Below are positions 6,119-31,134 of a stretch of DNA of 64,000 nucleotides, one piece after another; the stretch's first letter is position 1, and every line of letters starts with the position of its first letter. Below the pieces are notes generated by a model. The model saw only the letters and a list, made by a program, of their open reading frames with translations, ran no database searches and was not told where the DNA came from. The stretch lies in contig CACPMF010000002.1 in NCBI GenBank assembly GCA_902634935.1, forward strand, positions 1 to 64,000, given 5' to 3'. The DNA comes from an uncultured Pelagibacteraceae bacterium (GTDB lineage Bacteria > Pseudomonadota > Alphaproteobacteria > Pelagibacterales > Pelagibacteraceae). The translations under genes and the position numbers were made by a program.

Positions 6119-6137
6119 TATCAATATAAAAAAATAA

Positions 6138-7142: not shown

Positions 7143-9065
7143 ATGTGTGGAATAGCAGGCATTATATACAAAAATTTAAGTGAACAGGACATTAAATTAA
7201 ATATCTCCAAAATGATCTCACGTATAATTCATAGAGGACCTGACTCCAACGGCCACTGGATTGATAAAAATAATAGAATTATTTTGTGCAGTACTCGTTT
7301 AGCCATCCAAGATTTATCTAAGAATGGGGAGCAACCTATGTCTTCAAAATCTGAACGGTATAAAATAGTTTTTAATGGTGAAATTTATAATTTTAAGGAT
7401 TTAAAAACTCAGTATCTTCAAAAATTTGACTTTATAGGAAATTCTGACACTGAAGTATTCTTAGAATTAATAGAAAAATTTGGTATTCACAAAACTTTAA
7501 GTTTAATTGATGGAATGTTTGCTTTTGCATTGTGGGATAAACTTAATCAGAAACTTTATCTATGCAGGGACAGATTTGGTGAAAAACCTTTGTACTATGG
7601 AAAGGTATCAGGCAATTTTGTTTTTGCTTCTGAATTGAACTCTATTAGCTCTCTCAACTTTTTTAACAAAAGTATTTCTAAAAAGTCAATTGATCTATTT
7701 TTAAAATATTCATTTGTACCAGCCCCTGCTTCTATTTTTGAAGATATATACAAGCTTGAGCCAGCAAAATTACTTACATTTGATATTAAAAATTCGGAAA
7801 TTCAAAAAAGTGAGTATTGGTCTGCAATTAAAAGTCATAATGTTAATGCAACAAAAAAGCTTACTGAAAAAGAGTCTATCCAAGAATTAGATAATGTGCT
7901 GAATAATACTATTTCTAATCAAATAATCTCTGATGCACCTATAGGCACATTTTTATCAAGCGGTGTTGACTCTGGCCTGATATCAGCAATAATGTCTAAT
8001 CAATCAAAAAGAAAGATTAATACTTTTACAGTTGGATTTGATGAGGATTATGATGAAACATTAGATGCTAGAAAAATATCTAAAATTATTGGATCGGAAC
8101 ACCATGAGATTAATATAAAAAAATCATCCTTGTTAGATACTGCAAAATCAATTTCAAAATACTATGATGAGCCATTCTCTGACTCTTCACAAATACCAAC
8201 ATATTTTATATCAAAATTTGCAAGCAAAAAAGTTAAGGTAATTTTATCAGGCGATGGTGCTGACGAATTGTTTGGAGGTTATAATAGATATTTGTTAAGT
8301 AAAAAATATTATAAATATTTGAGACTTATTCCACAAAATATAAAAAAATATTTACAAAATTTTATATTCACTAATAAATATATTATTAGCAAAATTACAG
8401 ATCAAAATAATGGATTATTAGGTAGAAAAGTAAATATAAATTCCAAAACTCTTGATAAGATAAAGCAAATTTTATTATCAAAAGATTTTTTAGAATATTA
8501 TGATAGGTGCGTTTCAACTGTTTATTACCCTGATAAGTTTGATATGAGTAGAAAACATTTAGAAAAATGTAATGAAGAATTACCAAATCAAGATCCACTC
8601 ATCAAAATGATGTTATTAGATATAATTTTCTTTTTACCTTCAGATATGCTTTGTAAAGTAGACAGGGCTTCGATGGCCAATTCTTTAGAAGTAAGATGCC
8701 CATATTTGAGTAAAAATGTTTATGATCTATCGTGTGCGATACCTCAAAATCAAAAAGTTGATCGAAATTACAATAGCAAGGTTATATTAAAGCAATTAAT
8801 AAAAAAATATATACCAGGTATTGACTATAATAAAAAAAAAAAAGGATTTGGAGTTCCAATAGAAAAATGGTTAAGGAGCGATCTGCTCAATGAAGTTGAA
8901 GAAACATTTAATGATAATAATATATCTAAAGATCTTGAAATAGATAAATTTAATCTTCATAAATTATGGACAGATTTTAAATTATCTAAAAATAATTATT
9001 CGGACAAAATTTGGTCATTTTATGTATTATTTAATTGGTATGAAAATTTTAGAAATAGAGATTAA
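7143..9065 (+). CDS. asnB: Asparagine synthase (glutamine-hydrolysing)
   Basis: A 640-residue two-domain amidotransferase. Cys2 of MCGIAG is the glutaminase nucleophile, followed by HRGPDSNGHW and FNGEIYN of the class II glutaminase domain. The synthetase domain carries the PP-loop SSGVDSG and SGDGADELFGGYNRY. All key residues appear intact. In sugar islands AsnB-type enzymes often amidate a uronic acid or aminoacyl group on the glycan instead of making free asparagine; which applies here cannot be decided. A 12-base A run at 8832-8843 encodes lysines. The next gene starts on the base after its stop. Confidence 0.9.
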   Translation: MCGIAGIIYKNLSEQDIKLNISKMISRIIHRGPDSNGHWIDKNNRIILCSTRLAIQDLSKNGEQPMSSKSERYKIVFNGEIYNFKDLKTQYLQKFDFIGNSDTEVFLELIEKFGIHKTLSLIDGMFAFALWDKLNQKLYLCRDRFGEKPLYYGKVSGNFVFASELNSISSLNFFNKSISKKSIDLFLKYSFVPAPASIFEDIYKLEPAKLLTFDIKNSEIQKSEYWSAIKSHNVNATKKLTEKESIQELDNVLNNTISNQIISDAPIGTFLSSGVDSGLISAIMSNQSKRKINTFTVGFDEDYDETLDARKISKIIGSEHHEINIKKSSLLDTAKSISKYYDEPFSDSSQIPTYFISKFASKKVKVILSGDGADELFGGYNRYLLSKKYYKYLRLIPQNIKKYLQNFIFTNKYIISKITDQNNGLLGRKVNINSKTLDKIKQILLSKDFLEYYDRCVSTVYYPDKFDMSRKHLEKCNEELPNQDPLIKMMLLDIIFFLPSDMLCKVDRASMANSLEVRCPYLSKNVYDLSCAIPQNQKVDRNYNSKVILKQLIKKYIPGIDYNKKKKGFGVPIEKWLRSDLLNEVEETFNDNNISKDLEIDKFNLHKLWTDFKLSKNNYSDKIWSFYVLFNWYENFRNRD

Positions 9066-9980
9066 ATGTCTAGTATAATATTTAATAATGAAGGTATTAA
9101 ATTAAAATATAAGCTTAAAAAAAATTTGCGTTTGAATAACATTTCGTCGATTAAAAACCCAAAAAACAACTCTTTAATTTTTCTTCTTAAATCAGAGTAT
9201 AAAAATATTCATAAATTAAAAGCTATAAATAAATCATTAATTATTATTGAGGACTTTAAGATTTTACCAAGCAACATAAAAAAAAATAACTTTTTAGTAA
9301 AAAGTAGAAATCCTAAAATGGAATTTATGAAAATATTAAAAGATTTCGAGCTAATTCAAAGTACAGATAAAATTTTAAATCCAATTAATTCAAAAATTCC
9401 AAAATCTGTTAAAATAGAACCCTTTGTTTTTATCGATCATAATGTAGAGATTGGGAAAAATTGTGTAATAAAATCTGGGGTTAAAATTTATCAGAATGTA
9501 AAAATAGGCAATAACACAACAGTTGGTCCAAATTCTGTAATTGGTTACAAGGGGTTTGGAATAGATAGGGATAAAGAAAATATGCACAAAAAAATCCCTC
9601 TACATGGAAAACCACTTAAAATGAAACACTATGGAGGAGTGCAAATTGGCAAAAATGTTGATATTGGTGCTTTCAATACAATTGCGAGTGGCACTATATC
9701 AAAAACAGTTTTATCAGATTACGTGGTAACTGATGATCATGTACACATAGCTCACAATTGTAATATTAAAAAAGGTGTTGCAATAACCGCATCTGCGCAA
9801 TTAAGTGGGGGTGTTGAAATTGGAGAAAACTCTTGGATAGGACCAAATTCATCAATAATGCAAAAAGTTAAAATTGGAAAAAAAAATATCGTAGGTCTTT
9901 CAACAGTAATTTTTAGAGATACTGAAAACAATACGACATGGCTTGGAAACCCTGCTAGAAAAGTTTTTAAAGGAAAATGA
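9066..9980 (+). CDS. LpxD-like hexapeptide-repeat acyltransferase
   Basis: A 304-residue protein whose second half is a left-handed beta-helix of hexapeptide repeats (for example VEIGKN, VKIGNN, VQIGKN, VDIGAF, VEIGEN, VKIGKK). A HVHIAHN segment carries the histidine expected at the active site of LpxD/LpxA-type acyltransferases. The N-terminal 100 residues are a separate small domain, as in LpxD. Within the island it more likely acylates an amino sugar of the surface glycan than lipid A, since core lpxD normally sits elsewhere; that is inference. It overlaps the next gene by 4 bases. Confidence 0.75.
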   Translation: MSSIIFNNEGIKLKYKLKKNLRLNNISSIKNPKNNSLIFLLKSEYKNIHKLKAINKSLIIIEDFKILPSNIKKNNFLVKSRNPKMEFMKILKDFELIQSTDKILNPINSKIPKSVKIEPFVFIDHNVEIGKNCVIKSGVKIYQNVKIGNNTTVGPNSVIGYKGFGIDRDKENMHKKIPLHGKPLKMKHYGGVQIGKNVDIGAFNTIASGTISKTVLSDYVVTDDHVHIAHNCNIKKGVAITASAQLSGGVEIGENSWIGPNSSIMQKVKIGKKNIVGLSTVIFRDTENNTTWLGNPARKVFKGK

Positions 9981-10708
9981 AACATAAAATGTTCTCTTAC
10001 AGAGAATATATTAATATAATCAAACATTTTAAATTTCTTATTAAAGATTTTAAAAATGTTAACAAAAAAACTAAACAATTCTGTATAATTAGACATGATG
10101 TAGAATTTTCGTTAGATAGAGCTCTTATGATTGCTCGGTTGGATTATAATCTAGGTATTAAATCATCTTTTTTCATTCAAGTTAAAAACGATTGTTATAA
10201 CGGAATTTCAGATAGAGGCATTTTAATAATCAAAGAAATCTTAAAATTAAAACATTTTATTGGGCTTCATTTTTATTTTTCGAAAACACAAAAAAATTTA
10301 AAAGTATTAAAATTTGAGTTTAAAAAACAAACAAAAATTTTAGAAACAGCAATTGGAAAAAAAATAGATAGATTTTCAATTCATAGACCATCAAAATGGA
10401 TATTGAAACAAGATAGTAAAATATTTAAACCTTATATCAATACTTACTCTAAATTATATTTTGAATTCAGAGAAGATCCAAAAAATATTAAATATTATTC
10501 TGACAGTAATCATAACTGGAAATATGGATATCCCAAATTAATCAACAAATTTCAAAAGTATCAAATTTTATTGCATCCTGATGAGTGGTCAAAGGAAGGT
10601 GGTGGTCAAAAAGAAAACCTTAAGAAATTAATTCAAGAAAATAAACAACGTTTCATTAAAAATATGGATGGTGAATATAAAACTTTTAAAAGGTATTTTA
10701 AAATTTAA
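9977..10708 (+). CDS. Polysaccharide-deacetylase-like protein (NodB-like fold)
   Basis: A 243-residue protein with an ordered set of metal-site-like motifs: CIIRHDVEFS near residue 35, GLHFYF in the middle, SIHRPS, and LLHPDEWS near the C-terminus. This is the pattern of divergent carbohydrate esterase 4/NodB-like deacetylases found in glycan islands, which remove acyl groups from amino sugars. No signal peptide is visible, so a cytoplasmic role on a precursor is likely. Coupled by ATGA overlap to the acyltransferase gene before it. Confidence 0.65.
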   Translation: MKHKMFSYREYINIIKHFKFLIKDFKNVNKKTKQFCIIRHDVEFSLDRALMIARLDYNLGIKSSFFIQVKNDCYNGISDRGILIIKEILKLKHFIGLHFYFSKTQKNLKVLKFEFKKQTKILETAIGKKIDRFSIHRPSKWILKQDSKIFKPYINTYSKLYFEFREDPKNIKYYSDSNHNWKYGYPKLINKFQKYQILLHPDEWSKEGGGQKENLKKLIQENKQRFIKNMDGEYKTFKRYFKI

Positions 10709-10710
10709 AA

Positions 10711-11814
10711 GTGAAAAAAATTTTGTTTTTAAGCTTATCGGGCGAAGGTTTTTATTCTCATAGATTAAGTTACGTAAAACATTTAATTAAAAAAGGCAAT
10801 GAAGTAGTATTAATTTCAGAAATTAAAAAATTCAAAAAAAAGTTTAACAATGTGGGAATTAAAACAATAAATTTACCTATAAAAAAAAGATACGACTTTA
10901 ATCCAATAAGAATAATAAAATTAATATTTAAACTTAACAAAATAATTAAAAATATTAAACCGGATATTTTAAATAATATAGGAATTCTTCCAGTTTTAAT
11001 TGGATCTATTGCGAGCTATGGTATTAATTTAAAAATATTAAATTCTTTAACAGGCTTAGGCTCTTTAATAATTAATAAAAGTATAAAATATTCATTTTTA
11101 AAAGTAATTTTAAAAATATCTTTTTTTGTATTTATAAGAAAAACATTAATAATTGTACAAAATAAGTTTGATAAAAAATTTTGTCAAAAGATTGGTATTG
11201 ATGAGAACAAAATTTTTTTAATACCTGGATATGGCATACAATTACGTAATTATAAAAAGTCAAAACAAACTAATAAAATTCCAAGGGTAATACTTCATTC
11301 TAGAATGTTAAAAGTCAAAGGTATTTTAGATTATTATTATGCAGCAAAATATTTAAAAAAAAAAAAAGTTAAAGTAAAATTATTTCTTTATGGACCTTTG
11401 GATTATAACAATCCGAACAAATTAACTTTTAAAGATATTTATAATTTAAATATTAAGGGTTATTTAAAGTATATGGGAAATTCAAAAAGTATAAGGTTCT
11501 CACTTAACAAATTTGATATTGGATGTTTGCCATCTTATAGGGAGGGATTGCCAAGATCTGTATTGGAATGTATGGCTTCAAAATTGCCAATTATTACAAC
11601 AAAAGTGCCTGGAAATTCTGAAACGGTAATAAATAAATACAATGGTCTTATAATTAAGAAAAATAATCCAAAAGAATTAGCTTTAGCCATAAATAAACTG
11701 GCTAGTGACAAGGCACTTAGATTAAGAATGGGTACAAATAGTCTTAAATATTGTAATAAAAAATTTTCAACAAAAACTATTTTTAATAAATTAGATAAAT
11801 TATTTATTTTATGA
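10711..11814 (+). CDS. Family 4 glycosyltransferase
   Basis: A 367-residue GT-B enzyme starting at GTG. The N-terminal domain begins MKKILFLSLSGEGFYSHR and contains LNSLTGLGSL, typical of the PglA/CapM-like GT4 subgroup. The C-terminal domain has PSYREGLPRSVLECMASKLP, the E-x7-E donor-binding motif, then PGNSETVINKYNGLII. It would transfer a sugar from an NDP donor to a growing lipid-linked chain at the cytoplasmic face. A 13-base A run at about 11355-11367 encodes lysines. Overlaps the next gene by 4 bases. Confidence 0.85.
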   Translation: MKKILFLSLSGEGFYSHRLSYVKHLIKKGNEVVLISEIKKFKKKFNNVGIKTINLPIKKRYDFNPIRIIKLIFKLNKIIKNIKPDILNNIGILPVLIGSIASYGINLKILNSLTGLGSLIINKSIKYSFLKVILKISFFVFIRKTLIIVQNKFDKKFCQKIGIDENKIFLIPGYGIQLRNYKKSKQTNKIPRVILHSRMLKVKGILDYYYAAKYLKKKKVKVKLFLYGPLDYNNPNKLTFKDIYNLNIKGYLKYMGNSKSIRFSLNKFDIGCLPSYREGLPRSVLECMASKLPIITTKVPGNSETVINKYNGLIIKKNNPKELALAINKLASDKALRLRMGTNSLKYCNKKFSTKTIFNKLDKLFIL

Positions 11815-14615: not shown

Positions 14616-15419
14616 ATGATAAGTAGAAAATTTGCTAAGAAATTACGAATAGAAACTTTGAAAATGACTCATCATGGCAGGAGCTCACATATAGGATCTA
14701 TTCTTTCAATAATAGATATTGTAGCAGTTTTATACTGCAGAATATTAAAATTGAGACCTGGAAATTTAAAAAACAACGATAGAAATAGATTTATCCTAAG
14801 CAAAGGTCACGCGGGTGCTGCTGTTTATGCAGCGTTGGCATTTTTAGGTTTTTTTTCCAAAAAAAAATTGATGTCACACTGTAAAAATGGATCGAATTTA
14901 TCTGGACATATTTCTCACATAAACTTACCTGGTGTTGAATTTTCAACTGGTTCATTAGGACATGGCTTATCAGTGGGGTGTGGGTTTGCTTTTGCTTCTA
15001 AGTTAAAAAAAGAAAAATCAAAAACCTTTGTGCTTTTAAGTGATGGTGAGTGTAATGAAGGCTCAACATGGGAAGCAGCTATGTTTGCAGGACATCATAA
15101 GCTTAAAAATCTAGTTGCTATAATCGATTATAATAAACTTCAAAGCCTAACAACAACAACTAAAACCCTTAATTTAGAGCCATTTAAAAAGAAATGGGAA
15201 AGTTTTGGATGGGATTGTAAATTGATCGATGGTCATAATCATAAAATTTTGGAAAAAAACTTTTCAACAAAATCTAAAAACAAACCAAAGTGTTTTATTG
15301 CTAGCACAATAAAAGGGAAGGGAGTTTCTTTCATGGAAAATAAAGTGTTATGGCATTACAGATCACCAAACATCCTGGAGCTTAAAAAAGCTTTAGAAGA
15401 GGTAAAAAATGCGAGATAA
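14616..15419 (+). CDS. Transketolase, N-terminal (TPP-binding) subunit
   Basis: A 267-residue protein equal to the N-terminal third of transketolase. SKGHAGAAVYAALAFLG, GSLGHGLSVGCGFAFASK and the thiamine-diphosphate motif SDGECNEGSTWEAA through IDYNK are all present. It lacks the pyrimidine-binding and C-terminal domains, which are encoded by the next gene; the two overlap by 11 bases and must form one enzyme. Split transketolases are known in secondary and glycan pathways, where they move a two-carbon unit. The general tkt is separate, at 43342-45309. Confidence 0.88.
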   Translation: MISRKFAKKLRIETLKMTHHGRSSHIGSILSIIDIVAVLYCRILKLRPGNLKNNDRNRFILSKGHAGAAVYAALAFLGFFSKKKLMSHCKNGSNLSGHISHINLPGVEFSTGSLGHGLSVGCGFAFASKLKKEKSKTFVLLSDGECNEGSTWEAAMFAGHHKLKNLVAIIDYNKLQSLTTTTKTLNLEPFKKKWESFGWDCKLIDGHNHKILEKNFSTKSKNKPKCFIASTIKGKGVSFMENKVLWHYRSPNILELKKALEEVKNAR

Positions 15420-16338
15420 TTTTTTGAAAGCACTTTTAGAAGTTACAAAAAAAGATCAAAATATTTTTCTAATAACTGGAGACTTAGGTTTTAAAATTTT
15501 TGATAATTATATTAAAAAATTTAAAAATCGTTTTTTAAATGTTGGTGTTGCTGAGCAGAATATGATTGGTATTGCATCCGCAATGTCTTTAAGAGGATAT
15601 AAAGTAATCGTTTATTCTATTGCAAATTTTGGAACATTAAGATGCTTAGAACAAATTAGAAATGATGCCGCATACCATAATTCAAATATTACAATAGTTG
15701 CTTCAGGTGGTGGCTATACTTATGGCTCTTTAGGAGTATCGCATCATGCCACTGAGGATATTGGAATTTTAAGATCACTACCAAATATTAAGGTATTTGT
15801 ACCAAGCTCTGGTGTTGAAAGCTATCTCACAACAAAAAAAATTATTAATTTAAAAGGTGTTAAATATTTAAGAATTGAAAAAACATCAAATATAAAACCA
15901 TTAAACAAAAAAATCGATGTACTTAAACCCATCATCTACAGAAAAGGAAATGATGGAATAATTTTAACATCAGGAGGAATTTTAAGTGAATGCATTGACT
16001 CAGCTGATAAACTATTCAAGAATAAAAAAATAAATTTAAGCATTTATTCTTTAAACTGCATTAAGCCATTTAATAAAAATTTTTTTAAAAAATTATTAAA
16101 AGTAAAATATATTATTTCAGTAGAGGAACACAATTATTCGTGTGGAATAGGTTCTTCAATTCTAGAAAATTTAAATAAATTAAATATAAAAAAAAACATC
16201 AAGATTATTGCGATCAAAGATCGATATTCGAGTATAGTAGGCGATCAAAACTATATGAGAAGAAGCAATAACTTAAATTCTAAATCAATTCAAAATGAAA
16301 TTTTAAAATTTTTTAATGATGCTAAAAAACACTTTTGA
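15409..16338 (+). CDS. Transketolase, C-terminal subunit
   Basis: A 309-residue protein covering the pyrimidine-binding and C-terminal domains of transketolase. RFLNVGVAEQNMIGIASAM contains the glutamate that activates thiamine diphosphate, and the later ISVEEHNYSCGIGSSI belongs to the C-terminal domain. It complements the preceding gene to make a heteromeric enzyme of about 576 residues in total. Position between an aminotransferase and an initiating sugar transferase points to synthesis of an unusual glycan sugar, inferred from context. Its end overlaps the next gene by 23 bases. Confidence 0.88.
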   Translation: MRDNFLKALLEVTKKDQNIFLITGDLGFKIFDNYIKKFKNRFLNVGVAEQNMIGIASAMSLRGYKVIVYSIANFGTLRCLEQIRNDAAYHNSNITIVASGGGYTYGSLGVSHHATEDIGILRSLPNIKVFVPSSGVESYLTTKKIINLKGVKYLRIEKTSNIKPLNKKIDVLKPIIYRKGNDGIILTSGGILSECIDSADKLFKNKKINLSIYSLNCIKPFNKNFFKKLLKVKYIISVEEHNYSCGIGSSILENLNKLNIKKNIKIIAIKDRYSSIVGDQNYMRRSNNLNSKSIQNEILKFFNDAKKHF

Positions 16339-17038: not shown

Positions 17039-18880
17039 ATGTTCAAAAAATTAGTTTTACTGCCTAGAAAAACGAAAATAGTTTTATTAGTAATAATTGA
17101 TATTTTTCTATCGTTTGTGGCACACTATATGTCTGTTTTTTTAAGATATGAGAAACTATTTCTACTTAACTTTGAGCAGATAAAACCTTTTTTACTTGCC
17201 TTGTCTTTATATTTAATCATTTTTTTTTATTCTGGTATTTATGGAAATATTAATAGAGTAAATAATTCAAAGTATTTCTCAAAGTTAATAAGTATTTTCT
17301 TAATTTATGGAGTGATTTACTTTACATTGTTATTTATTATAAAATTTGAAAATTTTCCGAGGTCCTCTGGTATTATACAACCAATTATATTTTTTGTTTT
17401 CACTGTAATAACTAGAATCTTTTATTTATTTCTCATATCTGAAAACTTAAAAAATACCAATTCGAATTCTACAATAATAATTTTTACTAATTTAGATTTT
17501 ATAATTAATAATAATTATTCCTCCAGTTTATCATCTAATAACATATGTGCATATATTGATTTTACCAATAAAAATATAGACAGAAGAATTAACAATATTA
17601 AGATAGTCGGCTTATCTGAATTGGAACAAATTATAGGCAGATATGATATTTCAAACCTAATTATTCAAGATGAAAGTTTAAACGAAAAAGATAAAATTAA
17701 AATATTTAATAAAATAAAAGATAAACATATTAGATTCAAATTTATAAAAAAATTGAAAAATTTTAGTGAACAAGATGAAACATCTAAATTAGATATTAAT
17801 TTATTTTTAAAACGAAACATAAATACAAAAACAGGCGAGGTTAATACTCAAATAGTTAATAAAAATATACTAGTAACAGGTGCTGGAGGTAGTATAGGTC
17901 AGGAACTTTGTAATCAACTAGCACTTTTCAATCCAAGTAACTTAATATTATTAGACCATAGTGAATATAATTTATACAATGTAATAAAAAAATTAAAAAA
18001 AATACAAATTAAAGAAAATTTTAAAACAAAAATAATACCGATACTAGGGTGCATTAAAGATATAAGTGTGCTTAATGATATATTCAAAAAATATTCACCA
18101 GAAAAAGTATTTCACTCTGCAGCTTATAAACATGTTAATATTGTTGAAAAAAACCACATTGAAGCATTAAAAAATAATTTTTTTGGGACAATCAATCTGC
18201 TCGAATTATGTGAAAAATTTAAAACAAAAAACTTTGTACTTATTTCTACAGATAAATCTGTTAACCCAAGAAGCTTTATGGGTGCAACAAAAAGATTAGC
18301 TGAAATGGCTTTAGAATGCTATGCGGGTTTTACAAATCATACTATTTATAGTGCAGTAAGATTTGGAAATGTAATAGACTCATCAGGATCTGTTATTCCT
18401 CTTTTTAGAGAACAAATTAAATACGGAGGTCCAATCACAGTTACTCATCCTGACGTAAAAAGATATTTCATGCTGATCTCAGAGGCGGTCTCATTAGTTT
18501 TAAATGCTGACTATTTGTCAAAAGGGGGTGAAATATTTACTCTTAATATGGGTGATCAACATAAAATTTTAGATCTTGCAAAATTAATGATACGTAGTAG
18601 CGGACTACTTTTAAAGGATAACAACTATCCCGATGGAGATATTGAAATAAAGTATATTGGATTAAGTAAAGGAGAAAAGCTTGAGGAGGAACTAAACTAC
18701 GAGTCCAACAAATTAATGCAAACTGATAATCCAAATATCTATAAAACTAAAACAAATCCGATAAATATCAACGAATTTAAAAAAATTCAAAAAAAAATAG
18801 AAATGTTTTGTGATGAGGGTAAAGAAGGCCAAATTATTGATATTTATAAAAAAAATATTGAAGGGTTTAATATAAATTAA
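17039..18880 (+). CDS. Membrane NDP-sugar 4,6-dehydratase (WbpM/PglF/CapD family)
   Basis: A 613-residue protein with an N-terminal block of four membrane segments (about residues 10-145), a degenerate Rossmann domain, and a C-terminal SDR domain starting VTGAGGSIGQEL. The active-site signature STDKSVNPRSFMGATKRLAE has methionine where most SDRs have tyrosine, the hallmark of PglF/WbpM/FlaA1 UDP-GlcNAc 4,6-dehydratases. It would make the 4-keto-6-deoxy sugar that the nearby aminotransferases use. The gene ends on a TTAA that also gives the stop of the convergent gene. Confidence 0.92.
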   Translation: MFKKLVLLPRKTKIVLLVIIDIFLSFVAHYMSVFLRYEKLFLLNFEQIKPFLLALSLYLIIFFYSGIYGNINRVNNSKYFSKLISIFLIYGVIYFTLLFIIKFENFPRSSGIIQPIIFFVFTVITRIFYLFLISENLKNTNSNSTIIIFTNLDFIINNNYSSSLSSNNICAYIDFTNKNIDRRINNIKIVGLSELEQIIGRYDISNLIIQDESLNEKDKIKIFNKIKDKHIRFKFIKKLKNFSEQDETSKLDINLFLKRNINTKTGEVNTQIVNKNILVTGAGGSIGQELCNQLALFNPSNLILLDHSEYNLYNVIKKLKKIQIKENFKTKIIPILGCIKDISVLNDIFKKYSPEKVFHSAAYKHVNIVEKNHIEALKNNFFGTINLLELCEKFKTKNFVLISTDKSVNPRSFMGATKRLAEMALECYAGFTNHTIYSAVRFGNVIDSSGSVIPLFREQIKYGGPITVTHPDVKRYFMLISEAVSLVLNADYLSKGGEIFTLNMGDQHKILDLAKLMIRSSGLLLKDNNYPDGDIEIKYIGLSKGEKLEEELNYESNKLMQTDNPNIYKTKTNPININEFKKIQKKIEMFCDEGKEGQIIDIYKKNIEGFNIN

Positions 18881-19974
18881 TTTACTCTAAAAAATTTTAA
18901 TAGACTTTTTTTTATTAAATTCATATTTTCTGGTGTACTTATTGATATCCGAACATAATCATTCATGAATTTAAGATGGCCAAGATCTCTAATGTAAATG
19001 CCTTTTTGCTCCATATACCGCAAAAGTCTCACTTTTTTTTTAGTTTTCAATAAAACAAAATTTGCTGGTGTGTTGATTACATTTATTTTTTTTTTATTCA
19101 AATCACTTACAAATTTATATTTAGTTTTCTGAATTATTTTAATTTTTTTAATGTAATAAGATAAATTTTTGAGTGTTTCTATTCCAGCTATTTGCGCAAT
19201 CGAATTAATAGATTTATGATTTTTGTATTTATTTAAAGTATTAATAATTTGTTTTGAGGAAATACAATATCCTAATCTTAATGATGCTAGTCCAAAACAT
19301 TTAGAAAATGTTTTCATAATAATAAGATTTTGTACCTTATTGAGTGTATATTTATTTGCTAAACTTTCTTCTCCTGAATATTCAGAGTAAGCTTCATCTA
19401 CTATAAACAACGTTCTAGGAAATAATTTCAATATTTTAATAATTTCATCTCTTTTAAAATGATTACCAGTAGGATTATTAGGATTGCATATGTAAAAAAT
19501 TGCTGGTTTTATAATTTTTAATTCATAAATTAATTCTTCTATTTTAAAGCTAAAAATATTTTTAGGAAAAACTAACTTAAGATTTGCATCATTTAGAACA
19601 CACTCAATTCTAAATTGATCATACGTAGGTGACAAAATTCCAACTTTATTTTTGCTTTTTATGAAAGTTTTTGCAATTTGATCAAGACCAGAGTCTGATC
19701 CTGCAAATAAACAAATATTTAATTCACTTACTTTTATATATTTACTAATTTTGTTGATAAGTTCTCTTGGATAGGTATTTGGGTACCAATTTAAGTTGTA
19801 AGTATCTGAACTTATTGATTTTCGAATTTTATTAAGAACATTTTTACAAGGTTTGTATGGAAATTCATTCCAGTCAACTTTAATAAATTTTTTTTTGTTC
19901 TTTTTGTTATAAATTGCTTGCGAAGTTAATGGATATGGTTTGTCCACAATTTTTTTTTTAAAAAAATTTTTCAT
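18877..19974 (-). CDS. HisC-like class I/II PLP aminotransferase
   Basis: A protein of about 365 residues resembling histidinol-phosphate aminotransferase and CobD-type enzymes. CNPNNPTGNHF, VDEAYSEYSG and MKTFSKCFGLASLRLGY mark the fold-type I active site, the last one with the Schiff-base lysine (TFSK). The ATG at 19974 is chosen; an in-frame TTG at 20007 would lengthen the overlap with the HAD gene to 50 bases. Core hisC is not expected here, and the neighbours (HAD phosphatase and Asn-synthase-like gene) suggest a small dedicated pathway whose product is unknown. Confidence 0.8.
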   Translation of the reverse strand: MKNFFKKKIVDKPYPLTSQAIYNKKNKKKFIKVDWNEFPYKPCKNVLNKIRKSISSDTYNLNWYPNTYPRELINKISKYIKVSELNICLFAGSDSGLDQIAKTFIKSKNKVGILSPTYDQFRIECVLNDANLKLVFPKNIFSFKIEELIYELKIIKPAIFYICNPNNPTGNHFKRDEIIKILKLFPRTLFIVDEAYSEYSGEESLANKYTLNKVQNLIIMKTFSKCFGLASLRLGYCISSKQIINTLNKYKNHKSINSIAQIAGIETLKNLSYYIKKIKIIQKTKYKFVSDLNKKKINVINTPANFVLLKTKKKVRLLRYMEQKGIYIRDLGHLKFMNDYVRISISTPENMNLIKKSLLKFFRVN

Positions 19975-20431
19975 ATATGTTGATAGCTTTTTTCCAATTT
20001 CCATCAAATAAAATAAACTTAATTTTAAGTCTTTTTAGTTTTTGAATAAATCTTGTCATCTTTTTTGGAGCATTGTTGAAGTAGTCATATTTCATATCAT
20101 CTATAAAAAGTCCAACATCATTTGATTTCAAAATTCTGATTTTTTTTTCATGAGAATCAACAAGATAGAGCCTCTCATTAGGCAATTTTTTTTTTTTCAG
20201 CCAAGCTTTTGTCACATCAAATAATTTTTTTGGTCTGGCTGATAACCAATTAATTTCATATTTTTTAGATATTAGCTTAATTGCCTCTCTTGAGTGATTA
20301 ATTATTCTGTCATTTAAAATTAATTTCTCGTTATTTAAAATCTTATGCATATTTTTACCATTAAAGTGTTTTCTTATTCTTAAATATTGGTCAGCTACAG
20401 TATTATCAATATCGCAAAAAACTTTTTTCAT
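19958..20431 (-). CDS. HAD-superfamily phosphatase-like protein
   Basis: A 157-residue HAD protein. Motif I is DIDNTVADQY at residues 6-15 with both catalytic aspartates, motif II is the serine in INWLSARPKK, a lysine lies in the middle, and motif IV is GLFIDDMKYD. There is almost no cap domain, so it should act on an accessible phosphate. It lies between the HisC-like aminotransferase (17-base overlap at least) and the Asn-synthase-like gene, so a role in the same pathway is likely. Substrate unknown. Confidence 0.75.
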   Translation of the reverse strand: MKKVFCDIDNTVADQYLRIRKHFNGKNMHKILNNEKLILNDRIINHSREAIKLISKKYEINWLSARPKKLFDVTKAWLKKKKLPNERLYLVDSHEKKIRILKSNDVGLFIDDMKYDYFNNAPKKMTRFIQKLKRLKIKFILFDGNWKKAINIYEKFF

Positions 20432-20434
20432 GAA

Positions 20435-21928
20435 TTAAATTTTTAAGTTATTCTCGTTTTTGAAAATAATAAAATTTAAAAATCTCAAATAAAACCAGTG
20501 GTGATTTTTTTTAATTTTTTTTATCTTTAGGAAATAAATAATTTTTTTAATATTAAATAATTTATCTATTTCACCATTAAGTTCCTTCTTTAATACTTTG
20601 ATAAAAAAAAGTCTATATTTTAGACAAAAATTTTCATAAATAAATGGAAGATTTTTGTGTTTATATTTCTTCGTTTTATTCATCTCATCTAAATAAAATT
20701 TATCATTTTTTACTAATTTTTTGTAAATTTCCCAAAATGGAAAATTTTTATTTTTTTTGAGATAATTAAAATTGTAATTCAAGATATTTGAATTGTGAAT
20801 AATTGCAATCTTACTCATTTTGTGGTCATTTAAAAAAACTGATTTGTAAAATTGGTTTTTAACTGCCCTATCATATAAATAAAATTTTTCGATCATGTAT
20901 CTTCCGTAAACCTTATCTAATCTAGCTAAACTTTGATTTAAAACTAAATTACTTAAAGGAATATTCTTAAAATATTCATTAACTACATTTGGTGGTGTAG
21001 TATATTTTTTTTTTAAATCTTTTTTGTTTTTAATTTTTTTTCTTAGAAATTCAAATAAAGAAAAATCAAAAAAAAACTCTTTATTTTTCTTTGCCATGGA
21101 TGAATGAAATTTATACTGTGGAAAGCATGCAATCGTACTAAGTCCACTTAACCTATCACTGATTTTCTTTATCTCTTCAATACTTGGGTATATCTTACTT
21201 TCTTTTAATACAAAGTTAATTTTACTGAAAATTTTTATACTTCTAGCATTTGCCCTTTTTACTTCGTTAGAGTTAATATTCCCAAAAGTTGCAGTAAAAA
21301 ATTTATGTTTTTTTAGTGATTTTTTAATTAATAATGATCCCAAAAGTGAGTCGTTCCCAGAGGTTAGTCCAATATACAATTTATCAGCTTGAATAAATTT
21401 GCCTATTTTTTTAATTTCTTTATCAAATAAATTTAAATAGTTTGAATCACTAAATTTTCCTTTTTTAATATAAAATATTTCATAATTGTGTTTGTAAATT
21501 TTTAATTTATTTTTAATAATTTTAATTTTAGAATTTGGATTAATTGTCTTGATGTCTTTATAAATACTTTCTTTAGTGCATGGTAAATACCCCCACATAA
21601 AATATTCATAAAGCTTATCTAAATTAATCCTTACTGTATCAATTCGATTAATCCATTTTACAGAATTTGATATTACTATTTCGTTATTTTTATTTGTTTT
21701 AATAAAAAGTGGATAGGTACCAAATTTATCATTAATTATTTCAATAGAATTTTTTTTTTTATCAATTAATAAATATTCACCTTTTAATAACTTTTTATCT
21801 CTATATATGTAACCAAATATAAACTTTTTTAATTTATCAATTTTTTTAAATGATGATTTGGTATTTTTAACAAATAACTCAGTTTTCTCTTTTTTTATAG
21901 TTACTAGAAAGTCAGAAATTTGTTGCAT
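20435..21928 (-). CDS. Asparagine-synthase-like protein without glutaminase cysteine
   Basis: A 497-residue protein with the layout of AsnB but degenerate. The N-terminal third keeps remnants of a class II amidotransferase domain (NDKFGTYPLFIK, IVISNSVKWI), yet the protein begins MQQIS, without Cys2, so glutamine hydrolysis is unlikely. The PP-loop is LTSGNDS in place of SSGVDS, so adenylation chemistry is plausible. It probably forms an amide or other AMP-activated bond using another nitrogen donor. It heads a minus-strand trio with the HAD and HisC-like genes, 3 bases apart or overlapping. Confidence 0.72.
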   Translation of the reverse strand: MQQISDFLVTIKKEKTELFVKNTKSSFKKIDKLKKFIFGYIYRDKKLLKGEYLLIDKKKNSIEIINDKFGTYPLFIKTNKNNEIVISNSVKWINRIDTVRINLDKLYEYFMWGYLPCTKESIYKDIKTINPNSKIKIIKNKLKIYKHNYEIFYIKKGKFSDSNYLNLFDKEIKKIGKFIQADKLYIGLTSGNDSLLGSLLIKKSLKKHKFFTATFGNINSNEVKRANARSIKIFSKINFVLKESKIYPSIEEIKKISDRLSGLSTIACFPQYKFHSSMAKKNKEFFFDFSLFEFLRKKIKNKKDLKKKYTTPPNVVNEYFKNIPLSNLVLNQSLARLDKVYGRYMIEKFYLYDRAVKNQFYKSVFLNDHKMSKIAIIHNSNILNYNFNYLKKNKNFPFWEIYKKLVKNDKFYLDEMNKTKKYKHKNLPFIYENFCLKYRLFFIKVLKKELNGEIDKLFNIKKIIYFLKIKKIKKNHHWFYLRFLNFIIFKNENNLKI

Positions 21929-21995
21929 TTTAAAATAACAATTATCATAAGATCAGCTTATTGAAATACAAAAAAAATATAATTTAGGTTTGCTT

Positions 21996-23075
21996 ATGAC
22001 AAAAATTGCATATGTGGGTATGTCATCTAAATTGAATGCACCAGGTGATAGACGAAGATTTTCTGGTTATGCAAAATCAAGACTTATAAAGATTGAGAAA
22101 TTTAACGAAAAAAAAAAATATGATTTAATAGTTTTATCCCAGATGGCAGATTTAAGTTTTTTCTTAAATTATAACAAAAAAAATTCCAAAATAATTTTCG
22201 ATTTTGTAGATGCGTACTTAAATGAAGAATTCTCTTTTAAAAAAATTTTTAGGGGCATTGTAAAGTATTTAACTTTTCAAAATAGGTTTCTTTATCTTAA
22301 TTATTCAAGTTTATTAAAAAGAATATGCAGTAAATCAGATTACGTAATATGCACGACAAATTCTCAGAAAAAAGAAATTCTTAAATATTCAAAAAATGTG
22401 GAAATAATATTAGATGCACAGGACGATGATTTTATAAAAGATTATAAATTTGAACACACATTAGGTAAAAAAAATAAAAAATTAAATATTTTGTGGGAAG
22501 GACAACCAGGAAATATAAAATCCCTCAAAGCAATTTCAGATTTATTCAAATTCTATTTAAATAGGAATTTAATAAATCTTCATTTATTAACAGATTTTAA
22601 ATATAATTTATTATCTGGGACAAATTTAAAAGGTAATACAAAAAAGCTAACATATTCAATTTTGGGAACAAAAAAAAATATTTATTTTCATAAATGGAAT
22701 AAAAATAATTTGAATAAAATGAGTAAAATATGTGATATTGGTATATTACCGATTGTTAATTTCAAAAAAGGGATATACGCAAACAAGCCAGCAAATAAAA
22801 TACATTTAATGTGGAAACTTGGATTGCCAGTGTTATCAAGTCCAAGCGCAGCTAATAAATTTTCGATTTTATCATCAAAGATAAACCTTGTTTGTAAAAA
22901 TAAATACGAATGGAAAAATAAAATAGATTTTTTTATTAAGAAAAAGAATGAAAATAAAATATTAATTAAAAAAATTGGTAAAAAATTGAGAAATTATGCT
23001 TATGCAAATTATTCAAATAATATTATTTTTAACAAATGGGATAAAGTTTTAAAAAATTTAAATATTAAATTTTGA
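21996..23075 (+). CDS. Putative family 4-like glycosyltransferase
   Basis: About 359 residues from the ATG at 21996; a TTG two codons earlier is also in frame. The N-terminus (MTKIAYVGMSSKLNAPGDRR) and the later ILWEGQPGNIKSLKAISDLF with DIGILPI and KPANKIHLMWKLGLPVLSS follow the GT-B plan: acceptor domain, then a donor domain with the loop where GT4 enzymes bind the nucleotide sugar. The canonical E-x7-E is not obvious, so family membership is tentative. Its 3' end overlaps the convergent Wzz-like gene by 18 bases. Confidence 0.62.
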   Translation: MTKIAYVGMSSKLNAPGDRRRFSGYAKSRLIKIEKFNEKKKYDLIVLSQMADLSFFLNYNKKNSKIIFDFVDAYLNEEFSFKKIFRGIVKYLTFQNRFLYLNYSSLLKRICSKSDYVICTTNSQKKEILKYSKNVEIILDAQDDDFIKDYKFEHTLGKKNKKLNILWEGQPGNIKSLKAISDLFKFYLNRNLINLHLLTDFKYNLLSGTNLKGNTKKLTYSILGTKKNIYFHKWNKNNLNKMSKICDIGILPIVNFKKGIYANKPANKIHLMWKLGLPVLSSPSAANKFSILSSKINLVCKNKYEWKNKIDFFIKKKNENKILIKKIGKKLRNYAYANYSNNIIFNKWDKVLKNLNIKF

Positions 23076-27253: not shown

Positions 27254-27796
27254 ATGCCTTTATTTAAAAAGTATCATGATTCTGTATATCTAATTCAACC
27301 CGAAAAATTTAAAGATAACAGGGGAGAATTTATGGAGCTTTTTAATATTAAAAATTTAAAACGTTTTGGATTGAAAAATATAGTTCAGATTAATTACGCA
27401 AAATCAAAAAAAAATGTTTTAAGAGGAATGCATATTCAAATAGGTAAATACTCTCAAGGTAAACTTTTGAGAGTAATAAATGGATCAATTTTTGATGTTA
27501 TAATAAATCTAGATAAGAACTCTAGATATTTTAAAAAAAAATTATATTTTAAAATAGATAAAAATAACAAATTATTATGGATACCAAGGAATTATGCCCA
27601 TGGCTATTTGACTTTGAAGAAAGGCACTGAAATTGAGTATATATGTGATAACAAGTATAATAAAATTTCAGAAAGAACTATAATTTGGAACGATGATAAA
27701 TTAAATATTAATTGGCCAAAAAAAAAAAATTTAATATTTTCTAAAAAAGATATAGACGGAATAAGTTTGAGAGAATATTTGACCCAACTACTGTAA
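27254..27796 (+). CDS. rfbC: dTDP-4-dehydrorhamnose 3,5-epimerase
   Basis: A 180-residue cupin-fold epimerase, normal length for RmlC. NVLRGMHIQIGKYSQGKLLRVINGSIFDVIINL carries the catalytic histidine region, and IPRNYAHGYLTLKKGTEIEYICD the conserved AHG segment. It acts after RfbB. A second, diverged member of the same family lies tail-to-tail with it, overlapping by 9 bases, but belongs to the CDP-sugar operon. No rfbD follows. Confidence 0.92.
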   Translation: MPLFKKYHDSVYLIQPEKFKDNRGEFMELFNIKNLKRFGLKNIVQINYAKSKKNVLRGMHIQIGKYSQGKLLRVINGSIFDVIINLDKNSRYFKKKLYFKIDKNNKLLWIPRNYAHGYLTLKKGTEIEYICDNKYNKISERTIIWNDDKLNINWPKKKNLIFSKKDIDGISLREYLTQLL

Positions 27797-28279
27797 TTTT
27801 TTGAAGGATTTATCTCGTTTTGATAAAAAAAAATTCTTCAAAGGCCACTTGATTTTTATTTTTTCATCATTCCAAAGAATCCCACCTTGCTTTTTATTTA
27901 TAAACTTTCCCTCAATTAAATACAAAATCGTTGAATTCGGCTCAAGTGTTTGGAAACCGTGCGCGAAACCTTTTTCAATTAATACAGCATTTTTTTTCTT
28001 GGAGTCTAAAATTTTTGATTTATAAAAAAGTCTTTTATTTTTGGTTTTTTTAAGATTCACGGCAACATCAAAAATTTTTCCAGATAAACAAATAACAATT
28101 TTTCTCTCAAAATTTGGAGAATTTTGAAAATGTAAGCCTCTTATTGTTCCAACTTTCTTAGTTAGTGAAATACAAACTTGATCAATATTAAATTTAAGGT
28201 TTTTTAAAAATTCACTATCATATACTTTTAAAAAATAACCTCTTTTATCTTTATTGATTTTTATATTTAGATTTTTCAT
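27788..28279 (-). CDS. RmlC-like NDP-sugar 3,5-epimerase (CDP branch)
   Basis: A 163-residue RmlC-family protein with TIRGLHFQNSPNFERKIVICLSGKIFDVAVNL and EKGFAHGFQTLEPNSTILYLIEG. It is distinct in sequence from rfbC just downstream on the other strand. It sits in an operon with rfbF, a C-methyltransferase and two SDRs, so it most likely epimerises a CDP-4-keto-6-deoxyhexose, perhaps after C-methylation. It overlaps the upstream SDR gene by 29 bases. Confidence 0.85.
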   Translation of the reverse strand: MKNLNIKINKDKRGYFLKVYDSEFLKNLKFNIDQVCISLTKKVGTIRGLHFQNSPNFERKIVICLSGKIFDVAVNLKKTKNKRLFYKSKILDSKKKNAVLIEKGFAHGFQTLEPNSTILYLIEGKFINKKQGGILWNDEKIKIKWPLKNFFLSKRDKSFKKLQ

Positions 28280-29198
28280 TCTTAAAATAATTAATCATCT
28301 CTAACAATCCTTGATCGATAGAGTATTTATATTTAAAATTAATATTATTTAAATAGTTTATATTTATTTTGTATCGATTAGTTTTTAAATTTTTCTTATT
28401 ATTAAAAACTACTTTTGAAGTATTATTTTTATAATATTGCAAGGTTTTATTTATTAAAGTTTTAATTGAATAATTCTTTTTATCAGCAATATGTACTACC
28501 TTATTTTTTTTTAAGCTTATCAATTTTGAGATTACTTTTGATACATCGTAAACATGTAGTATATTAACTATTTTATTTGGATCTTGAATAAAAATATTTT
28601 TGTTGTTATTTAATTTTTTAACAATTGTTGGGATTAATCTTTTAGAACTTTCGTTTGGACCATATAGCCAAAATACTCTTGCCCAAATTATTTTTTTATT
28701 AAAATAATTTGCTATTTTTTTTGCTTTTATATGAAACAAAATTTTAGTTATATTGTAAAAATTAAGATTTTTTTGATCACCTACTAACTGCATTTCCTCC
28801 TTCAAATTCTTTGAATTAAAATTTAATTCCAATCCAGATCCAATTAATATGGCTTTTTGACCACCGTATTTACAAAAAAAGTAAAATAAACTTAAACTCG
28901 AGTGTAGCCATTTTAAATTTTTTTTACTATTTAAATATTTTTTTGGTTCTGTTTCCCATGCTAGATGTACTAGTATTTCAGGCCGTTCTTTTTTAATGAG
29001 TTTTTCTATTTGAGGTTTATCAAACAAATTTATTTTTACAAATTTAGTATTTTTATATGAATTTTTATTTTTTGTAGATAAACAAATTTTTTTATATCTT
29101 CTTAAATCACTTAAATTGACTAAATTTTTTCCAATAAAACCATTTGCTCCAGTTATTAAAATTTTTTTTACTTTATAATTTTTAGCTTTGGAATGCAT
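28251..29198 (-). CDS. NAD(P)-dependent SDR, putative 4-ketoreductase
   Basis: A 315-residue SDR with ILITGANGFIGKNL at the nucleotide-binding site, VHLAWETEP, and FYNITKILFHIKAKK giving an intact Tyr-x3-Lys. ARVFWLYGPNESSKRLIP matches the substrate loop of sugar-nucleotide SDRs. As the last redox enzyme of the rfbF/methyltransferase/epimerase operon, reduction of the 4-keto group to finish a CDP-deoxyhexose is the simplest guess. Both ends overlap neighbours (31 and 29 bases), which is strong translational coupling. Confidence 0.78.
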   Translation of the reverse strand: MHSKAKNYKVKKILITGANGFIGKNLVNLSDLRRYKKICLSTKNKNSYKNTKFVKINLFDKPQIEKLIKKERPEILVHLAWETEPKKYLNSKKNLKWLHSSLSLFYFFCKYGGQKAILIGSGLELNFNSKNLKEEMQLVGDQKNLNFYNITKILFHIKAKKIANYFNKKIIWARVFWLYGPNESSKRLIPTIVKKLNNNKNIFIQDPNKIVNILHVYDVSKVISKLISLKKNKVVHIADKKNYSIKTLINKTLQYYKNNTSKVVFNNKKNLKTNRYKININYLNNINFKYKYSIDQGLLEMINYFKNEKSKYKNQ

Positions 29199-30406
29199 AC
29201 TACAAATTGAGTCTTAACTCCCATTTTTTTTAGTTGTTTAATAATTTCGTCTTTTAAGTTCCATGGAAGTATAATTAAATAATCTGGATTTGATTTAATT
29301 AATTTTTTTGGAGAAAAAATTGGAATTTTCGATCCAGGCAAAAATTTTCCAACCTTTGTATCAGCCTTATCAACAGTGTATTGGATAAGATTACGATCAA
29401 CCAAACAAAAATTAAGAAAAGTATTTCCTTTTGCTGGGGCTCCATATGCTGCAACTTTTTTATTTTCTAATTTTTTAAGAACTAAAAAGTTTAAAAAATC
29501 CTCTTTTATCTTATTTATATTTTTTTGTAATTTCTCAAAAGTACTAATGGAAAAAATTTTATATTTATTTTCCATTGTAATTATTTTTTTAATCTTTATT
29601 TTTTTAACTTTGATTTTATTGTTTTTTATTTTTTTAATATAAACTCTAACTGATCCACCATGAGTTGGAAGTTTTTCAATATCAAAAATTTCTAAGTTGA
29701 ATTTTTTTAACAAAAAATTTACGGTTTTAATTGATAGATAAGAAAAATGTTCGTGATAAATAGTGTCAAACTGTTTTTGATTTATAAGATTTAGGATGTG
29801 TGGAAATTCTAAAGTAATTATTCCATTACTTGATAAGAGTATCTCCATTCCTTTAGTGAAATCTTTTATGTTTGGTACATGTGCAAAAACATTATTACCA
29901 ATTATAAGATCAAAAGATCCTTTATTTTTTTTTATTTTTTTTGATAAATTCACTCCAAAAAACTTGCTTATAGTTGGTATCTTTTTTTTAATTGCTATCC
30001 GAGCTATATTTTTAGCAGGCTCAATTCCCAATATTTCAAATCTTTTTTTATCAAAATACTGAAGTAAATAACCATCGTTACTCGCAATCTCGCAAACTTT
30101 AATCTTTTTTTTTAAAAAACCTAACTTTCTTGAGATATGTTTTACGTATTTTTCTGAATGTTTAAGCCACGATAGACTTGGAGATGACAAATAGTCATAA
30201 TTTGAAAAAATTTTGTCAGGTTTTTCATGCTCAGGGAGTTGAACGAGCTTACATTTTTTGCAGAAATAAACTTTTAAAGGAAAATATTTTTCCTCCTTAA
30301 AATATTTTTTTTTATTAATATAAGAATTAGCCAAAGGTGAAAAACCAAGATCTAGAAACTGGTTGGTTAATCTTGTTTCGCAAATTCTGCAATTAATTTT
30401 TACCAT
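29168..30406 (-). CDS. SAM-dependent sugar C-methyltransferase
   Basis: A 412-residue protein of the TylCIII/NovU/TcaB9 type that puts a methyl group on carbon 3 of a 4-keto-6-deoxy sugar nucleotide. The N-terminus has zinc-ligand pairs CRIC and CKKC, the SAM site is VCEIASNDGYLLQYF, and TIYHEHFSYLS carries the glutamate-histidine pair thought to deprotonate the substrate. The C-terminal AAYGAPAKGNTFLNF is typical of the third domain. It overlaps rfbF by 7 bases. A branched-chain sugar in the surface polymer is inferred. Confidence 0.9.
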   Translation of the reverse strand: MVKINCRICETRLTNQFLDLGFSPLANSYINKKKYFKEEKYFPLKVYFCKKCKLVQLPEHEKPDKIFSNYDYLSSPSLSWLKHSEKYVKHISRKLGFLKKKIKVCEIASNDGYLLQYFDKKRFEILGIEPAKNIARIAIKKKIPTISKFFGVNLSKKIKKNKGSFDLIIGNNVFAHVPNIKDFTKGMEILLSSNGIITLEFPHILNLINQKQFDTIYHEHFSYLSIKTVNFLLKKFNLEIFDIEKLPTHGGSVRVYIKKIKNNKIKVKKIKIKKIITMENKYKIFSISTFEKLQKNINKIKEDFLNFLVLKKLENKKVAAYGAPAKGNTFLNFCLVDRNLIQYTVDKADTKVGKFLPGSKIPIFSPKKLIKSNPDYLIILPWNLKDEIIKQLKKMGVKTQFVVCIPKLKIIK

Positions 30407-31134
30407 TTAATCCATGGTGCTTTATTTAATTTTATAAGTTTTTCCAAGTCCTTTTTGTCTCTAACTGTGTCCATTGGCATCCAAAATTTTTCATGCTTAA
30501 AAACTGCTAGCTGCCTCTCTTTCGATAGTTTTTCTAGAGGTTTCCTTTCCCAAACTGTTTGATCATTAGTAAGATATTTGAATACTTTGTTTGAAAGTAT
30601 AAAAAATCCACCATTTATCCAGCCGGAGTCCGTGTTATTTAAAGGTTTTTCCTCGAATTTTATTGCAAGATTATTCCTGATTTTAATGGATCCGAATCTT
30701 GCTGGCGGATGAACACCTAAAACGGTAGCAATTTTCTTTTTTGTTTTATGGAAGTTTAATTGTCTATTCAAATTAACGTTTGATAAACCATCTCCATATG
30801 TAAGAAAAAAATTTTCCTCATTTTTTAATATATTCTCCACTCTTTTTAATCTTCCACCTGTCATAGTGTTTAAACCGGTGTATACAACATTAATCTTCCA
30901 TTTCTTTTTTTTGACAGAAGTAAAAATTTTTTTATTTTTTCTAAAGTATTTTTCTATAACTTTTGATTTATATCCAGATAATATAAGAAAATCGTTGTAT
31001 CCATAGTAAGAATAATATTTCATAATATGACAGATTATTGGCATTTTAAGTAACTTTATCATCGGCTTCGGTGTAGTTTCTGTAAGTCTCCCAAGTCTTG
31101 ACCCAAATCCTCCGGCAAAAATTACAACTTTCAT
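30400..31134 (-). CDS. rfbF: Glucose-1-phosphate cytidylyltransferase
   Basis: A 244-residue nucleotidyltransferase that makes CDP-glucose. VVIFAGGFGSRLGRLTETTPKPMIKL is the conserved start, FFLTYGDGLSNVNL contains the metal-binding aspartate, and PPARFGSI with NGGFFILSNKVF are RfbF-specific landmarks. It commits glucose-1-phosphate to a CDP-deoxyhexose branch. Normally a CDP-glucose 4,6-dehydratase (rfbG) is the next gene, but here an SDR of another type precedes it in the operon by one base. Confidence 0.92.
   Translation of the reverse strand: MKVVIFAGGFGSRLGRLTETTPKPMIKLLKMPIICHIMKYYSYYGYNDFLILSGYKSKVIEKYFRKNKKIFTSVKKKKWKINVVYTGLNTMTGGRLKRVENILKNEENFFLTYGDGLSNVNLNRQLNFHKTKKKIATVLGVHPPARFGSIKIRNNLAIKFEEKPLNNTDSGWINGGFFILSNKVFKYLTNDQTVWERKPLEKLSKERQLAVFKHEKFWMPMDTVRDKKDLEKLIKLNKAPWIKW

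Follow-up and report, generated by a model that had tools for sequence, protein, structure and literature searches.

The closest described relatives, by role, of the genes considered here belong to the capsule pathway of Campylobacter jejuni. In serotypes HS:2 and HS:19, Cj1437 transaminates dihydroxyacetone phosphate to (S)-serinol phosphate and the pyridoxal phosphate (PLP) enzyme Cj1436 decarboxylates phosphoserine to ethanolamine phosphate; Cj1438C joins serinol phosphate by an amide bond to glucuronate in the growing chain, forming ADP; the HAD protein Cj1435 removes the phosphate after amidation; and the pathway also includes a UDP-glucose dehydrogenase and a pyranose/furanose mutase (PMC11800397, PMC13276843, PMC12096443). 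RtxA is another transaminase described as forming serinol phosphate (PMC3222319). Here we analyse 64,000 nucleotides of an uncultured Pelagibacteraceae bacterium (assembly GCA_902634935.1, contig CACPMF010000002.1, positions 1 to 64,000; "the window" below means this whole stretch), and in particular three of its genes, which we call HIS, HAD and ASN:

18877-20007, minus strand: HIS, a HisC-like fold-type I PLP enzyme of 376 amino acids, read from a TTG at 20007
19958-20431, minus strand: HAD, a capless HAD phosphatase of 157 amino acids
20435-21928, minus strand: ASN, an asparagine-synthetase (AsnB) homologue of 497 amino acids without the glutaminase cysteine

These genes form an isolated minus-strand operon, overlapping or abutting one another and opposed to their neighbours at 18877-21928, as an earlier note on this DNA had described. 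HIS and HAD overlap by 50 nucleotides (HIS has alternative in-frame ATG starts at 20004 and 19974, and the overlap is 17 nucleotides if the latter is used), and HAD and ASN are 3 nucleotides apart; this spacing suggests a single transcript. No promoter or terminator signal stood above shuffles. HIS and ASN are far longer than the open reading frames expected by chance, and HAD is narrowly so (500 first-order Markov resamples of the region gave a longest stop-free run of 141 codons, mean 79). The G+C content drops from codon position 1 to position 2 in all three genes, and position 3 is the lowest in HIS and ASN, though not in HAD.

We tentatively read the trio, as something short of an even chance, as an amide-decorating operon that follows the C. 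jejuni logic with an AsnB-fold ligase: an accessory operon in a hypervariable surface-glycan island that would attach a small amine to a carboxylate of the glycan. HIS would take glutamate as its amino donor and aminate a small phosphorylated ketone, e.g., dihydroxyacetone phosphate, to give a phospho-amino-alcohol (serinol phosphate or a relative). ASN, with its AsnB/beta-lactam-synthetase fold, would bind ATP, activate a uronic-acid carboxylate in the growing glycan and join it to the phospho-amine in place of ammonia, and HAD would strip the phosphate, probably after coupling. We infer the ligase activity, the amine, the carboxylate and the order of the steps from sequence.

HIS is an aminotransferase class I/II protein whose nearest NCBIfam family is hisC (TIGR01141) at 249.6 bits, below the equivalog cut-off of 276.55 that a housekeeping HisC from the same genus, used as a control, clears with 297.7 bits. 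It shares with HisC the family, the PLP residues and the catalytic set (N177, D204, Y207, K236, R244, R340 and R353; the roles of these residues, including R340 and R353, we take to be those of the HisC literature). HIS-like matches occur in 190 of 200 relatives, and HIS was compared with an alignment of 32 HisC rows that were among the best of these matches (26 distinct sequences, one gene being in twice; 29 genomes from another family of the order and 2 from its own genus). Over the alignment, identity between HIS and these rows is 29-33%, whereas the rows share at least 43% with one another and the two same-genus rows share 66%; HIS departs from them at 45 of the 88 positions at which they are invariant, including E106 to S and PFN 264-266 to HKS. 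Because of this distance from the relatives' HisC copies and the score below the curated cut-off, we conclude that HIS is most probably not an ordinary HisC and is a specialised paralogue.

The four HAD-superfamily motifs can all be read in HAD (D7-I-D9; LSARP with S64; HEKK with K96/K97; IDD with D111-D112; residues whose roles are presumably the usual ones), and a cap-sized insert is absent. Its profile matches, among them PNKP-type phosphatases as well as further HAD-like families, are weak and all below the Pfam cut-off; HAD has the motifs and the missing cap in common with the PNKP-type capless phosphatases and differs from them in having no kinase domain. A single-sequence structure model, with a predicted local distance difference test (pLDDT) score of 40, was too poor for use. 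Profiles and motifs thus agree with the earlier note in grouping an AsnB homologue with a HisC-like enzyme of the aminotransferase type and a capless HAD.

The second NCBIfam match of HIS is CobD (170.8 bits; cut-off 290.55), and with it comes a different division of labour, in which HIS makes a phospho-amino-acid (e.g., phosphoserine from phosphohydroxypyruvate) or decarboxylates one as CobD does, giving ethanolamine phosphate or aminopropanol phosphate, HAD removes the phosphate before coupling and ASN links the freed amine to the glycan. The phosphoserine decarboxylation described for Cj1436 of the C. jejuni capsule pathway speaks for such a route. We nevertheless consider it unlikely: HIS scores higher as hisC and retains R340 and R353 (with the roles assumed above), the CobD score is of little weight since the true HisC also matches CobD (187.2 bits), and large substrates are common among capless HADs, which disfavours removal of the phosphate before coupling.

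Profile libraries give little for ASN. In Pfam it has one sub-threshold match (GATase_7, 15.8 bits; cut-off 25), and in NCBIfam it reaches about 31 bits with TIGR03108 and TIGR01536, whose cut-offs are 816.9 and 267.1; its N-terminal part alone gives sub-threshold Pfam matches to GATase_7 and DUF7145 and no match to the PDB by sequence. Profiles made of AsnB homologues find it at 88.2 bits (17 sequences) and at 74.6 bits over residues 53-281 (42 sequences, HMMER), and hhalign against the 42-sequence profile gives a probability of 98.2, starting at residue 37. Residues 53-281 correspond to an amidotransferase-domain remnant and the PP-loop ATPase core. The glutaminase features are gone: Q stands at residue 2, the motifs RGPD, NGEIYN and SDTE are absent or deleted, so the missing glutaminase cysteine of the earlier note is borne out. 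On these alignments we regard ASN as a homologue of AsnB without a glutaminase. Two of its parts concern us further:

21347-21367, minus strand: the PP-loop of ASN, LTSGNDS, residues 188-194
20438-21085, minus strand: the C-terminal 216 residues of ASN (282-497), for which Pfam gave nothing at E up to 1

The loop T189-S-G-N-D-S194 retains the G, D and S of SGGxDS, which do not vary among 28 aligned sequences, and has T and S in place of the commoner S and G. The earlier note had called this loop changed; it does differ from the commoner SGGxDS, but altered chemistry does not follow, as the essential G, D and S are kept and two AsnB proteins with an MCG start have SSGxDS themselves (SSGVDS in the AsnB of the window, SSGIDS in that of locus L216). 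A structure model of ASN, predicted from an alignment with 27 other sequences, all of them AsnB homologues, has a mean pLDDT of 64 and a predicted template-modelling score of 0.68; most of its first 280 residues are modelled with fair to good confidence. Its top match in the PDB is carbapenam synthetase (Z 17.9, 4.4 Å over 393 residues), followed by AsnB (Z 16.8), human ASNS (16.5), TsnB9 (16.3) and beta-lactam synthetase (15.4), rows within Z 1 being counted as tied; below the AsnB-fold rows other PP-loop ATPases begin at Z 8.8. A viral fold search of ASN returned AsnB/amidotransferase-like matches, none closer. Beta-lactam synthetase and carbapenam synthetase (CarA) have the AsnB fold without the glutaminase cysteine, close a ring within one substrate in antibiotic pathways, and carry a Tyr-Glu dyad, a catalytic Lys and a metal-binding Asp in the C-terminal domain. 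They are among the best structural matches of ASN and are of like size (503-513 amino acids in the PDB against 497), whereas their C-terminal catalytic residues were not located in ASN; K420 does line up with an invariant Lys, though within a Lys-rich stretch of a region that is not reliably alignable.

The distribution of the three proteins was followed in genome sets that overlap between searches, with tallies that include the own genome and single-protein searches that reach close relatives only. ASN alone as query had matches in 7 of 200 genomes, HAD alone in 1 of 297 (its own), and a joined HAD+ASN query in 12 of 398, 3 of 399 and 3 of 397. Outside the own genome, no ASN orthologue was found in the sets of 200, 398, 399 and 397 genomes and no HAD orthologue in those of 297, 398, 399 and 397; neither protein was found in phages and plasmids (tblastn) or in viral contigs, and ASN, the one of the two scanned there, was not found in the genome contigs. 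One HAD match (G407) fell in a low-complexity stretch of a protein that we take to be GrpE-like, and was rejected. The ASN matches outside the own genome are 19 distinct AsnB-like genes, 16 that begin with MCG or have it close to the start (a contig end truncates one of these) and 3 without an MCG start, one of which starts MCL and may keep the cysteine. In the three loci without MCG (18-19 kb each) HAD has no homologue and HIS a single chance match (E 0.03); AsnB homologues without MCG thus recur in glycan loci, and not with HIS or HAD in the three loci read.

These three loci have features of their own. Locus L218, from the same genus, carries at 8980-10734 (minus strand) a 584-amino-acid AsnB homologue without the N-terminal cysteine, with an LSGGMDT loop and FNGHGFDYMF replacing the usual SGDGGDE; it lies directly upstream of an AsnB-like gene at 7240-8979 (minus strand) with an MCA start, the two being possibly a paired system, and the locus holds NeuB/PseI-like and PseF-like genes and neither HIS nor HAD. 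Loci L219 (8818-10569, plus strand) and L220 (8397-10139, plus strand), from other Pseudomonadota, have AsnB homologues without MCG (one with MCL) that keep SGGLDS and GDGGDE; the next gene encodes 314-319 amino acids and in L219 weakly matches polysaccharide deacetylases.

HIS gave 64 loci in the genome contigs, at 21-30% identity and mostly from Acidobacteria by title, and, with E allowed up to 1, no frame in them matched HAD or ASN. AsnB-profile matches occur at four of them. Those of L072, L121 and L125 look by their starts like GlmS. In L077, a metagenome-assembled Acidobacteriaceae genome, about 2 kb separate a HisC-like gene from an AsnB homologue whose first residues are MAG (8062-9984, minus strand), and a lasso-peptide PqqD-like gene sits between the two (6068-6343, minus strand); this is possibly a lasso-peptide locus. 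The HIS-like loci of the genome contigs are not useful for testing co-occurrence. HIS was not found in viral contigs, and the 82 viral-contig loci fetched through AsnB queries had no HIS or HAD match and two weak ASN matches (E 1.5e-6 and 1.7e-4), both with MCG. Matches to HIS occur in 21 phage and 462 plasmid records, all below 60% identity; those annotated among the 20 phage and 15 plasmid matches listed are named hisC or histidinol-phosphate/aromatic aminotransferase.

A number of these and other observations weigh against an amide-decorating operon. The strongest counterpoint is the missing second AsnB motif, GxGxDE, which we take to be the metal/pyrophosphate site: ASN has no such string and none was recovered by alignment, so that compared with AsnB (TIGR01536) it keeps the homologous region and the PP-loop and lacks Cys2, RGPD, NGEIYN, SDTE and GxGxDE. 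HMMER finds no homology after residue 281 (ASN may be inactive or act otherwise), a permissive hhalign path reaches residue 494 and recovers no motif, and the C-terminal part has two chance-level sequence matches in the PDB (E 1.9 and 2.3). Model confidence is low at 283-334 and 337-391, and the C-terminal part is unreliable. Because the predictor's alignment consisted of AsnB homologues, the structure match is partly built in; it shows compatibility with the fold and is not independent proof. The link among the three genes rests on their adjacency in one genome, because no orthologue of ASN or HAD was found in the sets searched, and the three loci described above have AsnB homologues without MCG and without HIS or HAD partners, so such partners are not needed in general. 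With the same-genus HisC as query, the best match in the own assembly is HIS (35%, E 7.8e-38). The window genes that were scanned include no dehydrogenase seen to be of a uronate-forming kind. Another contig (C11) does carry a nucleotide-sugar dehydrogenase (TIGR03026, 436.9 bits; cut-off 189.8), whose best named match is the UDP-glucose 6-dehydrogenase TuaD (437.1 bits, below the equivalog cut-off of 700); it adjoins a GalU-like gene (244.6 bits; cut-off 326.8), and with the two a supply of UDP-glucuronate in this genome is plausible.

With GxGxDE missing, the earlier note's statement that ASN should form an AMP-activated bond goes too far. Its broader suggestion, that an amino compound is made and attached, is still the most economical reading; since GxGxDE is absent and the last 216 residues have no HMMER homology, the attaching activity of ASN is something we infer. 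The same two absences, with no orthologue to show constraint, would fit an ASN that is no longer a ligase, namely a degenerate AsnB homologue with a binding or regulatory function, or else a gene in decay, while HIS and HAD would supply a precursor, such as an amino alcohol, to a different enzyme of the island. This too seems to us improbable, given an open frame of 497 codons with coding-type G+C by position, a retained PP-loop and tight operon spacing.

The surroundings of the trio include the following features:

17039-18880, plus strand: a polysaccharide-biosynthesis nucleotide-sugar dehydratase, which we liken to WbpM, convergent with HIS and overlapping it by 4 nucleotides
21990-23075, plus strand: the divergent neighbour upstream of ASN, 61 nucleotides away, with a sub-threshold GT4-like match only
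7143-9065, plus strand: a canonical glutamine-dependent AsnB homologue of 640 amino acids with an MCG start and the PP-loop SSGVDS, our comparator for ASN
2139-3251: a UDP-galactopyranose-mutase homologue
33206-33320: a 5S rRNA gene, which ends the glycan island

The window lies on contig C2 of an assembly of 1.06 Mb in 35 contigs that is 79% complete, and is AT-rich (21-33% G+C in 2-kb steps). From its start to 33 kb most of the scanned genes are for glycan biosynthesis (the mutase, glycosyltransferases, EpsG, AsnB, DegT-type aminotransferases, a sugar-phosphate transferase, the nucleotide-sugar dehydratase, Rml genes and a C-methyltransferase), and beyond the 5S rRNA gene those scanned are mostly for central metabolism. 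The gene at 21990 has matches in its own genome only, among 101 genomes searched. The trio is thus an isolated operon within a glycan island, much as the earlier note's self-contained cassette in a glycan setting would have it. In SAR11, hypervariable region 2 (HVR2) is an island of about 50 kb that contains lipopolysaccharide genes, lies between the 5S rRNA and the 16S-23S rRNA genes and has little conserved gene order (PMC4053759); the island found here fits HVR2. It also contains a split transketolase, with the thiamine-binding half at 14616-15419 and the pyrimidine-binding/C-terminal half at 15409-16338 (both plus strand), directly after a DegT-type aminotransferase gene; the window has a full-length transketolase at 43342-45309, and the split one may make a branched or unusual sugar. 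Two RmlC-type 3,5-epimerase homologues, at 27254-27796 (plus strand) and 27788-28279 (minus strand), converge with a 9-nucleotide overlap, and the second closes a minus-strand run with a C-methyltransferase (29168-30406) and a glucose-1-phosphate-cytidylyltransferase-like gene (30400-31134).

AsnB-type proteins occur in glycan loci, uronamide formation has reportedly been proposed for those of the WbpS/WbmE type, and this island has a second, canonical AsnB. ASN might accordingly be an ammonia-dependent primary-amide synthetase that makes a uronamide, with HIS and HAD as a separate small pathway adjoining it by chance; we think this quite unlikely, as the canonical AsnB of the island could already fill that role and the spacing of the three genes suggests one transcript. 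That HIS is the genome's own histidinol-phosphate aminotransferase, relocated to the island, is very improbable even though no housekeeping HisC orthologue, and no better HisC than HIS, was found in the 79%-complete assembly (matches on C1, C2, C6 and C9) and the same-genus HisC matches HIS best there, for the same-genus HisC rows that are 66% identical to each other are at most 33% identical to HIS, the hisC cut-off is not reached, and in all four relatives' neighbourhoods read (L055-L058; L058 by profile, the rest by likeness) HisC lies between metX-like and tyrA-like genes.

We return to the amide-decorating operon and its parallel in C. jejuni. The earlier note recognised no described pathway of this make-up, yet the HS:2/HS:19 glucuronamide pathway has the same three roles of PLP enzyme (Cj1437 or Cj1436), ATP-dependent ligase (Cj1438C/HS19.11C) and HAD phosphatase (Cj1435/HS19.09). 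Both systems lie in a surface-glycan locus. The dehydrogenase nearest UDP-glucose dehydrogenase is elsewhere in the genome here, as a possible counterpart of Cj1441, and the UDP-galactopyranose-mutase homologue of the window may be set beside the pyranose/furanose mutase of C. jejuni. The PLP and HAD classes of a C. jejuni-type pathway are present in the trio, and ASN would be its ligase. The ligase of Campylobacter makes ADP and forms the C-terminal domain of a protein that has a glycosyltransferase domain as well, whereas ASN would be a free-standing AsnB-fold protein; Cj1435 is of 25.8 kDa, and HAD has 157 amino acids. The AsnB family makes AMP. The likeness to Cj1437, Cj1438C and Cj1435 is one of described roles, and we claim no homology. 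We found no paper joining an asparagine-synthetase-like ligase, a HisC-like enzyme and a HAD phosphatase in the part of the PMC literature searched, a weak negative since most subscription papers lie outside it.

A bolder form of the proposal, which we hold to be doubtful, is that ASN founds a new branch of the AsnB fold. It would be a ligase that stands alone, does without glutamine and has a rebuilt C-terminal domain; it would adenylate a uronic-acid carboxylate of a growing glycan and couple it to a phospho-amino-alcohol made by HIS, the capless HAD trimming the product. ASN would then have an origin independent of Cj1438C and lead to the same kind of surface amide. For SAR11 islands of the HVR2 type, selection for evading phages and predators has been suggested (PMC4053759), and amide decoration would take negative charge off the surface glycan. 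The proposal gives a short list of candidate substrates for ASN, a protein that profile libraries hardly place; if it is true, there would be a second kind of ligase for surface amides, related to the synthetases that make antibiotics.

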